Positions 6,062-10,635 of a stretch of 64,000 nt of DNA are shown here, in pieces. Source of the stretch: an uncultured Candidatus Thioglobus sp. (GTDB lineage Bacteria; Pseudomonadota; Gammaproteobacteria; PS1; Pseudothioglobaceae); the NCBI GenBank assembly GCA_905182815.1, contig CAJJCX010000004.1, positions 372,001-436,000 on the forward strand, read 5' to 3'. The notes below the pieces were generated by a model. The model ran no database searches and had not been told where the DNA came from. It worked only from the letters and a program-made list of their open reading frames with translations. The position numbers and the translations under genes were made by a program. The first letter of the stretch is position 1, and each line of letters begins with the position of its first letter.

Positions 6062-7027
6062 TTAGTTGTTGCAAATAATGATTACTCGAGTAGGTGCAGG
6101 GTGACCTTCTTTTGTGAGAGATGAGTCAGATGGGTCAAGGAAATCCTCTAATGAAGCCGCATTATCTCCTATCCATTCAGTTCTCCTTTGCTCTTCAGGG
6201 GAAGTTTTGCTAATATCAATAACTTTAATATTTTTGAATTTGGCATCAACAAGCCATGATTTCAGAGTCTCAACACTAGGCAGGCAATGAACATTCCGCA
6301 TTTGAGCATAGCGACCATCTGGGATAAGTGAGTACCCATTTGGACCTTCAACTACTAAGGTCTCTAATATTAGCTCTGCGCCTGGCACCATCATATCTTT
6401 TAACTGAAGCAAATGTTCCATATGACTTCTTTGGTGATATAGAACACCCATTGAGAAGACAGTGTCAAAGATTGATAATTTAGGCATTTCTTCAAGTCTA
6501 ATAGGAAGAAGCATCACATTAATGTCTTTATTGACTAACGATTTAATTGCAGCATACTGGTAATTAAATAAAAGGAAAGGCTCAATTCCTAGTGCTTTCT
6601 TGGCACCTTCCATCGCCATTCTTAATGTGAAATAGCCATTTCCAGCACCTACATCAAGAACTTTTCTATTTTTTAATGGAGTAATGTGCTTTTGCAGACG
6701 TTTCCATTTAAGATCACCTTGCCATTCGCTCTCAAGTTTTAAATTATTGAATATGAATGGGCCTTTCCTCCATGGCAGAAGTCTTTTGAGCGCCCTTTCG
6801 AGTAATATAGGGTCAGCACTATTTTGATCTATTCTAATGTAGGGTTCATTTAGCTCTATTTCGCCTTTAGGTATAGCTTTTAACTCATCCAATGCTATAG
6901 TCCATTTAGGAATATTTCCGTTGTTAACGTTGAAAGCATCTAGGCTTATTCTGAGGCATTTATCTGCAATTTTTTGGAGTGATGAATCATTGAAAAATAG
7001 CTTAAATTCATCCGTAAATAAAATCAT
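6062..7027 (-). CDS. cmoB: tRNA U34 carboxymethyltransferase
   Basis: Transfers a carboxymethyl group from carboxy-SAM to 5-hydroxyuridine at tRNA position 34, giving cmo5U. The 321-residue protein matches CmoB throughout: the lead WRKGPFIFNNLKLESEWQ, SAM motif VLDVGAGNGYFTLRMA, GIEPFLLFNYQ, FDTVFSMGVLYHQRSH, and LETLVVEG. The C-terminus includes RTEWIGDNAASLEDFLDP. CmoA, which makes carboxy-SAM, is not in the window. It stands alone on the minus strand, divergent from the repeat-protein locus; the 88-base spacer is very AT-rich. Confidence 0.93.
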   Translation of the reverse strand: MILFTDEFKLFFNDSSLQKIADKCLRISLDAFNVNNGNIPKWTIALDELKAIPKGEIELNEPYIRIDQNSADPILLERALKRLLPWRKGPFIFNNLKLESEWQGDLKWKRLQKHITPLKNRKVLDVGAGNGYFTLRMAMEGAKKALGIEPFLLFNYQYAAIKSLVNKDINVMLLPIRLEEMPKLSIFDTVFSMGVLYHQRSHMEHLLQLKDMMVPGAELILETLVVEGPNGYSLIPDGRYAQMRNVHCLPSVETLKSWLVDAKFKNIKVIDISKTSPEEQRRTEWIGDNAASLEDFLDPSDSSLTKEGHPAPTRVIIICNN

Positions 7028-7115: not shown

Positions 7116-8123
7116 GTGATAAACAAATCAATTAAATTTTTTATAATCTTTTTCCTTTCATTTAATGTTTTCGCTGGTGGTGACGATCGTGATGATGCCT
7201 ACTATGCAAATTTAGATGAAGAGTTGGCTGCATTTGAAGCTCAAATCGCTGCTGATGTATTGGCTGATGAGCTTGCTGCATTCGAGGCTGAAATGGCAAG
7301 GCAGGCTTCTGAGCTTGCTCTTGAGCAAGAATTGGCTAACTTTGAAGCACAACTTGAGGCTAATCTAACTGCCCAAGAAATGATGGCTGAAATAGAAGCA
7401 GAGATGGCAAGACAAGCTGCCCTTGATGCCTTCCAGGCAAAACTAGCTGCGGATAAAGCTGCTGCTGCGAAGTCTACAGCTGCTTATCAATCTAAACGTG
7501 CAAATGACGCAAGGATTGCTGCGCTTATGGACCAGCTCAATACCGAAAAAGAATTGGCTAACTTTGAAGCACAACTTGAGGCTGAATTAGCTGCTCAAGA
7601 AATGATGGCTGAAATAGAAGCAGAGATGGCAAGACAAGCTGCTCTTGATGCCTTCCAAGCAAAACTAGCTGCGGATAAAGCTGCTGCTGCAGCGTCAACT
7701 GCTGCTTACCAAGATAGTCTTTTAGATGCAGAGTTTGCAGCGCTTGAAGCTCAAATTAAAGCTGAAGCGGATGCTGCTGAAATGATGGCTGAAATTGAGA
7801 GAGAAATGGCACTTGCTGATTTCCTGCAAAAACTAGCGGATGAAAAAGCTGCTGCTGCAGCGTCAACTGCTGCTTACCAAGCCTCACTTGCTGATGAAGA
7901 AGTTATAGGTGTCATTGAAGAGGTAGTTGTTACAGAAGCTGCGCATGAGGCATGTAAATATGCATTAAATTTATCTGAAAGTAACATTGCGCTCTTCAAA
8001 TCTGCATTGGCTGATGGAACTTTATTTAATGTAGGCCCTCAAGTTTCTTCTGGAACTGAATTCACAGCAAATAGATGGGATGCATATGCAAACTGTGTCA
8101 GTAACTATGTCAACCCTTTCTAA
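7116..8123 (+). CDS. Secreted Ala/Glu-rich helical repeat protein A
   Basis: I recognise no family. I place the start at GTG 7116, which has GGAGA five bases upstream; a TTG at 7104 would add four residues and lose this site. Of 335 residues, 1-20 form a signal peptide (hydrophobic run ending NVFA). Residues 21-270 are almost all Ala, Glu, Gln, Leu, Met, Lys and Asp. They include two copies of a 74-residue unit (ELANFEAQ..EMMAEIEAEMARQ..LDAFQAKLAADKAAAA..TAAYQ) plus degenerate shorter copies. The hydrophobic spacing suits long helices or coiled coil, resembling TolA domain II in composition only. The last 60 residues are a separate domain with the protein's only two Cys, shared with protein B. 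A strong terminator follows. Confidence 0.8.
   Translation: MINKSIKFFIIFFLSFNVFAGGDDRDDAYYANLDEELAAFEAQIAADVLADELAAFEAEMARQASELALEQELANFEAQLEANLTAQEMMAEIEAEMARQAALDAFQAKLAADKAAAAKSTAAYQSKRANDARIAALMDQLNTEKELANFEAQLEAELAAQEMMAEIEAEMARQAALDAFQAKLAADKAAAAASTAAYQDSLLDAEFAALEAQIKAEADAAEMMAEIEREMALADFLQKLADEKAAAAASTAAYQASLADEEVIGVIEEVVVTEAAHEACKYALNLSESNIALFKSALADGTLFNVGPQVSSGTEFTANRWDAYANCVSNYVNPF
7329..7772 (+). repeat. 222-bp coding repeat, two copies in gene A
   Basis: Two consecutive 222-bp (74-codon) units begin at 7329 and 7551, taking the GAATTGGCTAAC motif as the first base of each. They are almost identical at DNA level, including synonymous positions, and match the units in the downstream gene equally well. 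The third period of gene A (from about 7710) diverges into a shorter variant. High identity at silent sites implies recent duplication or ongoing gene conversion between the two genes. Confidence 0.85.
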
Positions 8124-8181
8124 GGTTTAAGATAATTAGTCATTTTGCTTACTTAATGTAAATGCAGAATGTGTCAGAAAT

Positions 8182-8211
8182 AAAAACCCAGGGCTTGCTC
8201 TGGGTTTTTTT
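8182..8211 (+). terminator. Rho-independent terminator after repeat gene A
   Basis: A seven-base-pair stem (CCCAGGG pairing with CTCTGGG, with one G-U pair) with a CTTG loop is flanked by A5 on the left and T7 on the right. It lies 60 bases after the stop of gene A and 15 bases before gene B. The two paralogues are therefore likely separate transcription units. Confidence 0.9.
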
Positions 8212-8226
8212 ATTTATAATGAATTT

Positions 8227-10055
8227 ATGAAAAGTAATTTAATAAGTATTCTTATAAAATTAGTATGTATTTTATTACTATCATTTAATGTCCACTCAAG
8301 TGATGATGTAAATGACTCACTCCTGCAGGATGATAACGATATTATGCTGATAGATGAATTTAGTTCATGCACAGATCAATATGAAATTAATGATTTAGAA
8401 TCTAATAACATCACTTCCTCACTTTTATTATCTGGAGATGCCTTCTTTGCTCCAGGTGATTTGGTTATTAGTTCAAAAAATGCAAGAGCCATTGTTGATT
8501 CATATGATTCTTCGACAAATAAATTGATATATTATCAAACTGCTGAAACTGGCTTTAAATCATTTTCCCTAGGCGAAAAACTTGTTGGTAAGGGTGAAAA
8601 TGTTTCTATTATTGAAGAGTTTATTCTTGATTTTGGAGTTCCTTGCTCTGATCTTGTTGTCTCTATTGAAGAAAGTCCTGAGCAAATGATATTTATTTTT
8701 GCTGACTCTGATGAAGCAATTAAAGCTAAATTAGCCGCTCAAGAAATGATGGCTGAAATAGAAGCAGAGATGGCAAGACAAGCTGCCCTTGATGCCTTCC
8801 AGGCAAAACTAGCTGCGGATAAAGCTGCTGCTGCAAAATCAACAGCTGCTTATCAATCTAAACGTGCAAATGACGCAAGGATTGCTGCGCTTATGGACCA
8901 GCTCAATACTGAAAAAGAATTGGCTAACTTTGAAGCACAACTTGAGGCTGAATTAGCTGCTCAAGAAATGATGGCTGAAATAGAAGCAGAGATGGCAAGA
9001 CAAGCTGCTCTTGATGCCTTCCAAGCAAAACTAGCTGCGGATAAAGCTGCTGCTGCAAGTCAACTGCTGCTTATCAATCTAAACGTGCAAATGACGCAAG
9101 GATTGCTGCGCTTATGGACAGCTAATACTGAAAAAGAATTGCTAACTTTGAAGCACAACTTGAGGCTGAATTAGCTGCTCAAGAAATGATGGCTGAAATA
9201 GAAGCAGAGATGGCAAGACAAGCTGCTCTTGATGCCTTCCAAGCAAAACTAGCTGCTGATAAAGCTGCTGCTGCAAGTCAACAGCTGCTTATCAATCTAA
9301 ACGTGCAAATGATGCAAGGATTGCTGCGCTTATGGACAGCTAATACTGAAAAAGAATTGGCTAACTTTGAAGCACAACTTGAGGCTGAATTAGCTGCTCA
9401 AGAAATGATGGCTGAAATAGAAGCAGAGATGGCAAGACAAGCTGCCCTTGATGCCTTCCAAGCAAAACTAGCTGCGGATAAAGCTGCTGCTGCAGCGTCA
9501 ACTGCTGCTTACCAAGATAGTCTTTTAGATGCAGAGTTTGCAGCACTTGAAGCTCAAATTAAAGCTGAAGCGGATGCTGCTGAAATGATGGCTGAAATTA
9601 AGAGAGATGGCAAGACTGCTGCTCTTGCTATCTTCCAAGCAAAACTAGCGGATGAAAAAGCTGCTGCTGCAGCATCAACTGCTGCCTATCAGGCTAAGCT
9701 TGCTTATGATATGAGGGTTACTAAAATTATGGATGATTTAATTGTTCAATTAGATGAGCTAGGTATTGTTGATGATTATAAATCGACTATCAAAGATGAG
9801 CTTATAAAAGAAGCGACAGAGAAGCTAGAAGATGAGAAATTTATTGGCACAATTTCTGGAGAAATAGTAACGGTTGCGATACATGATTTTTGCAAGGTAA
9901 ATTTAGGGCTATCAGATAGCAATATTGAACTTTTCAAGAAGGCATTAGAGGGTGGTTATTTAGGAAATGTTGGCCCTCAGGTAACAAATGGAACTGAATT
10001 TTCATCGAATCGATGGGATGACTATATAGAGTGTGTTGGCTCTAAGAGAATATAA
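8227..10055 (+). CDS. Secreted Ala/Glu-rich helical repeat protein B (one net frameshift near 9141)
   Basis: Paralogue of protein A, about 609 residues after repair of one missing G near 9141 (GAATTGCTAAC where sister copies have GAATTGGCTAAC). Residues 1-24 are a signal peptide. Residues 25-165 form a domain absent from A, with two Cys and a beta-looking stretch (APGDLVISSKNARAIVDSY..TNKLIYY..GEKLVGKG). From about residue 169 come four near-identical 74-residue units, then shorter variants. The last 60 residues repeat the domain of A (FCK, GPQV, GTEF, NRWD.Y..CV). In two central units paired deletions of one and two bases put about 23 codons in another frame. Function unknown. As it stands, the sequence stops at 9174. 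Confidence 0.7.
8734..9575 (+). repeat. 222-bp coding repeat array in gene B
   Basis: A partial unit near 8734 is followed by units starting at 8917, 9136 and 9354. The spacings are 219 and 218 bases instead of 222. The shortfall comes from a missing base near GCTGCTGCAAGTC, two missing bases at TATGGACAGCTAATAC (sisters have GGACCAGCTCAATAC), and in one unit a further missing G. The same 1+2 deletion pattern occurs in two neighbouring units, so it was copied with the repeat or arose from the same consensus error. Confidence 0.85.
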
Positions 10056-10077: not shown

Positions 10078-10635
10078 TTATATTTCTAATAATGAATTCT
10101 CTTTGTCAGTCAAAGACCTTTCAATTAAAGAGATATGTTGATCTGTAATTTTTTGTATATTATCTTCAGCTCTATGTGACTCATCTTCTGATATTTCTTT
10201 TTCTTTAAGGAGCTCTCTAAAGTCAGATATAGCATCTCTTCGAATATTTCTTATTGCCACGCGCGCATTTTCAGCTTCATCACGAACAACTTTTACTAAT
10301 TCTTTTCTGCGCTCTTCAGTTAGAAGGGGCAAAGGAATTCGCAAAACCTGTCCTTGAGTGTTTGGGTTTAAACCTAAATCAGACGTCATAATTGCTTTTT
10401 CAATTGGTCCAACCATATCTTTTTCCCAGGGTGAAACCTTAAGAGTTCTTGAGTCTTCAGCGCTTACATTAGAAACTTGTGAAAGAGGAACCATGCTGCC
10501 ATAGTATTCAACTGTAATTTGATCAAGTAGTGAGGGGTGAGCCCTTCCAGCACGAATCTTACTAAAGTCAGTCTCAAGAGAAGCGAGTGATTTACTCATT
10601 CGGCTATTTGCATCACTGTGAATTTCATTAATCAT
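10078..10635 (-). CDS. frr: Ribosome recycling factor
   Basis: Splits post-termination ribosomes together with EF-G. The 185-residue length is standard. Recognisable stretches are [62 protein letters not shown] and [21 protein letters not shown]. It lies three bases after pyrH, the usual gammaproteobacterial pyrH-frr order; tsf is not adjacent here. It converges on repeat gene B with a 22-base gap. Confidence 0.97.

Follow-up and report, generated by a model that had tools for sequence, protein, structure and literature searches.

We analysed a 64,000-nucleotide (nt) stretch of contig CAJJCX010000004.1 from an uncultured Candidatus Thioglobus sp., referred to in full as the window, in which two adjacent plus-strand genes, A (7116-8123) and B (8227-10055), encode proteins with Ala/Glu-rich repeats (Table 1). 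An earlier reading of the letters alone, hereafter the original prediction, had described a tandem pair with signal peptides, a shared C-terminal domain and an additional N-terminal domain in B, and all of this was borne out: both proteins open with a signal-peptide-like segment (judged by eye), their C-terminal domains are 57% identical and the extra domain is present in B. The repeats, also predicted, lie far beyond chance, with a Tandem Repeats Finder score of 1455 for 8725-9515 compared with 54 at most elsewhere in the window; six copies of a 218-nt reference unit were found across A and B at an identity of at least 60%.

Table 1. Features of the gene pair and its flanks (positions in the window; E, expect value)
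Feature	Position	Strand	Remarks
Gene A	7116..8123	+	335 amino acids, GTG start, intact open frame; orthologs in the same slot of relatives
A, signal-peptide-like segment	7116-7175, then GGDDRD 7176-7193	+	By eye; GGDDRD by pattern match (G000:C4:379176-379193)
A, Ala/Glu-rich helical repeat stalk, residues 26-257	7191..7886	+	AlphaFold2 helix and direct repeats
A, C-terminal domain, two invariant Cys	7932..8111	+	Profile match G000:C4:379932-380111, E 3.6e-31
Terminator-like hairpin between A and B	8182..8209	+	12 pairs, 5 of them G-C, T-tract
Gene B, first open piece: signal-peptide-like segment, N-terminal domain, repeats, stop	8227..9174	+	
B, N-terminal domain, phage baseplate-wedge/neck type	8365..8733	+	Profile-profile core 8470-8607
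B, repeat array, period 218, frame break near middle	8725..9515	+	Tandem Repeats Finder score 1455
Gene B, second open piece: repeats, B-specific linker, C-terminal domain	9186..10055	+	
B, C-terminal domain	9870..10046	+	Profile match G000:C4:381870-382046, E 3.9e-32
cmoB, conserved left neighbour	6062..7027	-	TIGR00452, 360.7 bits (cut-off 275); synteny
frr, conserved right neighbour	10078..10635	-	TIGR00496, 228.3 bits (cut-off 149.1); synteny

In an AlphaFold2 model built from 8 sequences (predicted template modelling score 0.26), the repeats of A form a single helix with a block predicted local distance difference test (pLDDT) score mostly of 82-95, which supports the predicted helical spacer as far as a model can, AlphaFold2 often rendering such repeats as a single helix. 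The repeat number varies, as had been anticipated: full-length copies of A range from 294 to 433 amino acids (aa) in eight genomes and those of B from 325 to 521 aa in seven, with four cut or broken copies left out and the cut A copies of G009 and G010 not counted in these ranges (G and L numbers denote genomes and loci). Within one genome (n=10), the longest stretch identical between A and B measured 147, 225, 527, 38, 21, 54, 14, 125, 23 and 23 nt (median, taken as the upper middle value, 54 nt), compared with a median of 18 nt and a maximum of 71 nt for 90 between-genome pairs; runs of at least 54 nt occurred in 5 of the 10 within-genome pairs and 1 of the 90 others, in a comparison of 20 genes from 10 genomes, 4 of the genes being cut at contig ends. 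G006 and G028, the most extreme of these, are each assembled as a single contig. C-termini at 57% identity beside long identical runs of stalk DNA mark A and B, by sequence, as old paralogs with re-copied stalks.

A third repeat paralog was observed at a distant site outside the window (L046:8150-9344 (-) and L047:1996-2769 (-)); it shares 150 identical nt with A and 147 with B. Its N-terminus looks membrane-anchored by eye, the signals of A and B looking cleavable, and its copy in the window's own genome is broken in the repeats, with the G015 copy intact.

A conserved slot and its C-terminal domain

A search for related loci gave 20, with records named SUP05-cluster, Candidatus Thioglobus and Candidatus Pseudothioglobus and several labelled only gammaproteobacterium or Thiotrichales; the family (Thioglobaceae) and genus (Pseudothioglobus) names used here follow these titles. 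Of twenty stretches fetched from relatives, thirteen contained both flanks, and in all 13 the gene lies between cmoB and frr; this same-slot gene was found in nine genera, that is, in all those examined for synteny. Beyond frr, all 13 have uvrA and 11 of them pyrH; L038 and L039 (G021 and G014) lack a listed pyrH in the interval from frr to uvrA. The remaining seven stretches comprise five that run into a contig end with one expected flank and two that hold the third paralog elsewhere. Profile searches placed the C-terminal domain of ~60 aa in 75 of 83 genomes of the family (46 of 49 high-quality genomes; 11 of 11 genera), made up of 22 of 29 Pseudothioglobus genomes and 53 of 54 outside that genus, and in none of 365 genomes of other families, the four matches in a class sample of 369 being four family members. 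The view of this region as the one clearly accessory locus is thereby refuted.

Two Cys residues are invariant in 19 of 19 aligned C-terminal domains. The domain is retained in complete genomes of ~1.0 megabases (Mb) (G061, G062, G065 and G069), which we take to be those of clam symbionts, and the G061 copy is an intact protein of 127 aa; a stop falls within the matched span in G034 and G058, that of G034 closing the reading frame shortly before the domain is complete. Seven Pseudothioglobus genomes gave no match (G001, G007, G008, G011, G012, G013 and G019). In G011 the assembly is broken at the locus, with contig ends 66 nt beyond the match to frr and 50 nt beyond that to cmoB, and G007, G008, G012 and G013 contain no frr and no convincing cmoB, the locus lying outside those assemblies. 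In G084, of another genus, the interval from frr to the end of the contig showed no frame with the domain, and a cmoB was not found either. G001 and G019 carry a single gene in the slot (L107:2122-2730 (-) and L108:2122-2730 (-)), composed of a signal-peptide-like segment, GGDDRD, the phage-type domain described below and an unrelated C-terminus, with no stalk.

Searches with the C-terminal domain gave only sub-threshold matches to Pfam (best E 0.032) and PHROGs (best E 0.039) and no credible match to PDB sequences (best E 0.98); the domain has no confirmed viral relative, and gene A has no relative among annotated phages. The one Pfam match obtained with the whole proteins, a weak one of the A repeats to Phage_int_SAM_1 (18 bits, cut-off 22.3), was taken as chance. 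The claim that the proteins belong to no recognised family thus stands for the C-terminal domain and the stalk and fails for the N-terminal domain of B, which has phage relatives. Since the C-terminal domain gene is kept even in complete genomes of ~1.0 Mb, this family-wide exported gene without a named family is likely to be an important envelope component.

The gene takes different sizes across genera. Outside Pseudothioglobus, 51 of 53 matching genomes have open frames of 101-170 aa, and the small forms that we read consist of a signal-peptide-like segment, GGDDRD, a linker and the C-terminal domain, with no repeat stalk. One short Glu/Ala insert was seen by eye in G036; G032 has a frame of 295 aa with several Pseudothioglobus-like units, and the frame of its congener G073 is 261 aa; in Pseudothioglobus two genes occupy the slot with several repeat units each. 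The small Thioglobaceae protein shares with A and B the slot, the GGDDRD after a signal-peptide-like segment and the C-terminal domain, but at ~120-150 aa lacks both the stalk and the phage-type domain. A and B therefore appear to be enlarged and duplicated forms of a small exported protein core to Thioglobaceae, with the repeat stalk apparently built stepwise at one fixed chromosomal site.

A second exported-looking orphan gene was observed outside the window (L187:3461-3838 (-), L186:3194-3604 (+) and L188:3094-3483 (-)), in three of three Pseudothioglobus genomes searched. It encodes a signal-peptide-like segment, GGDDRDQxLPLNSLN, an acidic linker, a C-terminal membrane helix and a charged tail, and two copies scanned gave no convincing Pfam match; in five genomes of other genera, the one GGDDRD match in each was the small C-terminal-domain gene. 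The GGDDRD start common to the orphan and the slot genes is possibly a shared targeting or interaction tag.

The phage-type domain of B

A full-length B from Candidatus Thioglobus sp. REDSEA-S12_B1 (L055) was modelled with a small beta domain at residues ~60-130 (block pLDDT 78-90) and low confidence elsewhere (mean pLDDT 56.5). A Foldseek search of this model against viral models returned 12 matches at E<=1e-3 (best 5.2e-5, 1.8 Å over 72 columns), assigned to the beta domain by their length and root-mean-square deviation; the named proteins among the 50 matches listed belong mostly to cyanophages and uncultured tailed phages and include baseplate wedge, tail sheath and structural proteins. 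At the level of profiles, phrog_438 (baseplate wedge subunit) was matched by 10 of 10 domain members at E<=1 (best 1.9e-4) and phrog_460 (head closure Hc2) by 3 of 10 (best E 0.0012). A scan of viral contigs yielded seven loci with 38-53% identity over the best segments, and all three viral relatives scanned are full-length members of phrog_438 (E 2.7e-74 to 1.2e-82, positions 1-477). A tblastn search of annotated phages with the phage-type domain of a relative gave nothing better than E 7.

When phage records were searched with the domain profile, 12 of 12 gave a match at E<=0.1 (S-ShM2 only at 0.019); seven of them had been taken from the viral scan itself and five picked after the Foldseek matches. 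Proteins annotated beneath such matches are a baseplate wedge subunit, head closure Hc2 and baseplate wedge tail fiber connector. Profile-profile comparison gave 98.5% (E 1.9e-15) for the wedge domain and 96% (E 4e-9) for a mixed set, compared with 0.1% for a control with the C-terminal domain.

The kinship is confined to one domain. In phrog_438, a subunit of T4-like baseplate wedges, the homologous part lies near residues 337-410 of phage proteins of 449-456 aa and has the stretch around TGFxSF in common with B; the B domain matched only positions ~349-436 of the 478-position profile, not its full length, and B adds a signal-peptide-like start, the stalk and the bacterial C-terminal domain. 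The relation to phrog_460, the T4-like head closure protein of the neck, annotated in two cyanophages, is more distant and involves no other part of B. Judged from sequence comparison, the N-terminal domain of B is homologous to the C-terminal beta domain of phrog_438 wedge proteins, and its recurrence in several phage virion proteins suggests a general binding or packing module. A marine virus contig (L118:446-5294) carries adjoining T4-like baseplate genes of phrog_261, phrog_219 and phrog_438, one of which contains a relative of the B domain.

Within the family, the domain was detected at E<1e-30 in 14 of 29 Pseudothioglobus genomes and in 0 of 54 others, with two more weak Pseudothioglobus matches (0.003 and 0.009); in eight domain-negative genomes of the genus (G002, G003, G005, G017, G022, G023, G025 and G027) B leaves the contig before the domain. 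The class sample of 369 yielded one positive, the window's own genome. The domain tree has long branches and only 1 of 16 inner branches well supported, leaving the direction of transfer undecided. Where the original prediction suggested a decoy or adhesin under phage or grazer selection, the finding is a different one, a phage-virion-type domain within B, which does not by itself show a decoy role.

Candidate function and competing explanations

We tentatively favour, at a likelihood just short of even, a three-part design in which a conserved C-terminal docking module is joined to a recombining stalk and, in B, to a captured phage-type binding head; its location, partner and ligand are what we infer. 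A and B would cross the inner membrane by Sec, and the C-terminal domain, probably disulfide-closed, would dock to an envelope component shared across the family, a docking module for a shared partner being the most economical reading of a family-wide domain with two invariant Cys. The Ala/Glu stalk would set the reach, its length changing continually through recombination between paralogs, and the captured beta domain of B would form a binding head for a glycan or surface protein at the far end of the stalk. The order of gain would be a family-wide C-terminal domain, a later and changeable stalk and a later, genus-specific beta domain. We regard as rather unlikely a bolder version, in which the genus has turned a baseplate or neck domain of phages into the head of an exported stalk protein of shuffling length, docked by a lineage-specific C-terminal module, and uses it at the cell surface in contact with phages or other cells; one slot would in that case preserve the stages of construction, from the bare module through one proto-unit and a few units to duplicated genes with a head.

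Several observations weigh against the three-part design. No outer-membrane anchor is visible, and a position of the B head at the cell surface is unproven. A canonical coiled-coil rod is not supported, the apolar residues of the A stalk having a period peak at 3.34 (power 0.071; 99th percentile of 500 shuffles, 0.035) and powers of only 0.004 at 3.5 and 0.005 at 11/3, which fits neither heptads nor hendecads (3.67). The C-terminal domain of A was modelled as three short helices with low confidence (block pLDDT 31-71). The window's own N-terminal domain matched phrog_438 at E 0.082 only, and the B model had no match to solved structures (PDB fold search) at E<=1e-3; since the fold searches covered viral models and solved structures, cellular relatives of the beta domain are possible. 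Five of ten genomes have no marked excess of A-B identity. Finally, B is not continuous in this assembly, as its first piece (8227-9174) runs open to a stop and its second (9186-10055) is open in another frame.

This break, overlooked in the original prediction, which took B as one gene, raises a serious though on balance improbable alternative, namely that the break is real and that in this population B, like the third paralog, is decaying into a pseudogene. The break stands in the assembled sequence, the deletion sites are common to adjacent units, unexpected from independent read errors, and the third paralog is also broken in the same genome; however, B is open in all seven other genomes with a full-length copy (G006, G028, G020, G021, G014, G010 and G009) and in G004, and near-identical repeats are the only places where breaks occur, which is what reads without unique placement would give. 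The units around the break are spaced 218 and 219 nt apart, in-frame spacing being 222 nt (74 codons), and for the remaining genes of the stretch relatives have counterparts of similar length. We consider a consensus error in the repeats somewhat more likely than decay of B. Many assemblies have contig ends at these repeats, and this one has frame breaks there, so that both genes are easy to miss or to call pseudogenes.

An unlikely but by no means far-fetched alternative is a periplasmic spacer like TolA or Lpp, in which the stalk spaces or bridges envelope layers, the C-terminal domain makes the contact at its end and the phage-type domain is only an additional packing module. It would accord with a signal-peptide-like start without a visible outer-membrane anchor, with the long Ala/Glu-rich helix of the model, with the anchor-like N-terminus that the third paralog has instead, and with a genome that yielded no TolA domain, although it is incomplete (1.32 Mb in 4 contigs, 76.8% complete). 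The form taken as ancestral, though, has no stalk, so that spacing is not the core role; the A helix, 232 residues at 0.15 nm each, would extend ~35 nm, which exceeds the usual periplasm; and a spacer would not be expected to carry a phage-type head. The likeness to TolA is one of architecture, a long Ala-rich helix followed by a small C-terminal domain, but A and B open with a signal-peptide-like segment, and the TolA C-terminal domain PF06519 (Pfam) was found neither in A and B nor in the 19 C-terminal domains; with no match in the window's own genome either, TolA serves as an analogy, not as a family. Export and the helical spacer of the original prediction have support.

Two further alternatives concern the N-terminal domain of B. 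It is quite improbable that it originated in cells, as a widespread small beta fold that phages took up from bacteria or share by chance: the tree leaves the direction open and the fold searches spanned viral models and solved structures only, but the domain occurs in several kinds of phage virion proteins and the window's own genome alone was positive in the class sample. Still less probable is interference, with the domain mimicking a baseplate or neck part and blocking or misdirecting infecting phages, for although it is related to baseplate-wedge proteins and limited to one genus of the family, none of three pieces of A and B matched the PADLOC-DB anti-phage models at E<=0.1, its relatives sit in wedge and neck proteins for which no receptor-binding role is shown here, and nothing else at the locus indicates defence.

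Membership of the antigen I/II adhesins (NF033804, NCBIfam) was rejected: the Ala-rich repeats match weakly, at 10.9 and 17.1 bits, but the curated cut-off is 1500 bits and only the helical repeats are covered. The locus is unmentioned in the titles and abstract openings listed, a weak sign of novelty; the parts are of known kinds, and their combination at a fixed core locus is undescribed as far as those titles and openings go. If the three-part design is right, B offers a testable case of virus-to-host domain capture, an exported protein of the cell having taken a domain of phage virions into new use, in SUP05-related bacteria, which are abundant in the ocean.

Neighbouring genes and transcription signals

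Among the neighbours, BioC, CmoB, Frr, PyrH and UvrA passed their curated cut-offs and a ZnuA-like protein fell below its own. The proposal that A and B form their own transcription units stands in part: terminator-like sites in the window (5; shuffles, mean 3.1, standard deviation 2.0) are not clearly in excess and promoter-like sites (8; shuffle mean 9.2) are not in excess, but the hairpin with its T-tract at 8182-8209 is consistent with separate transcription units for the two genes.

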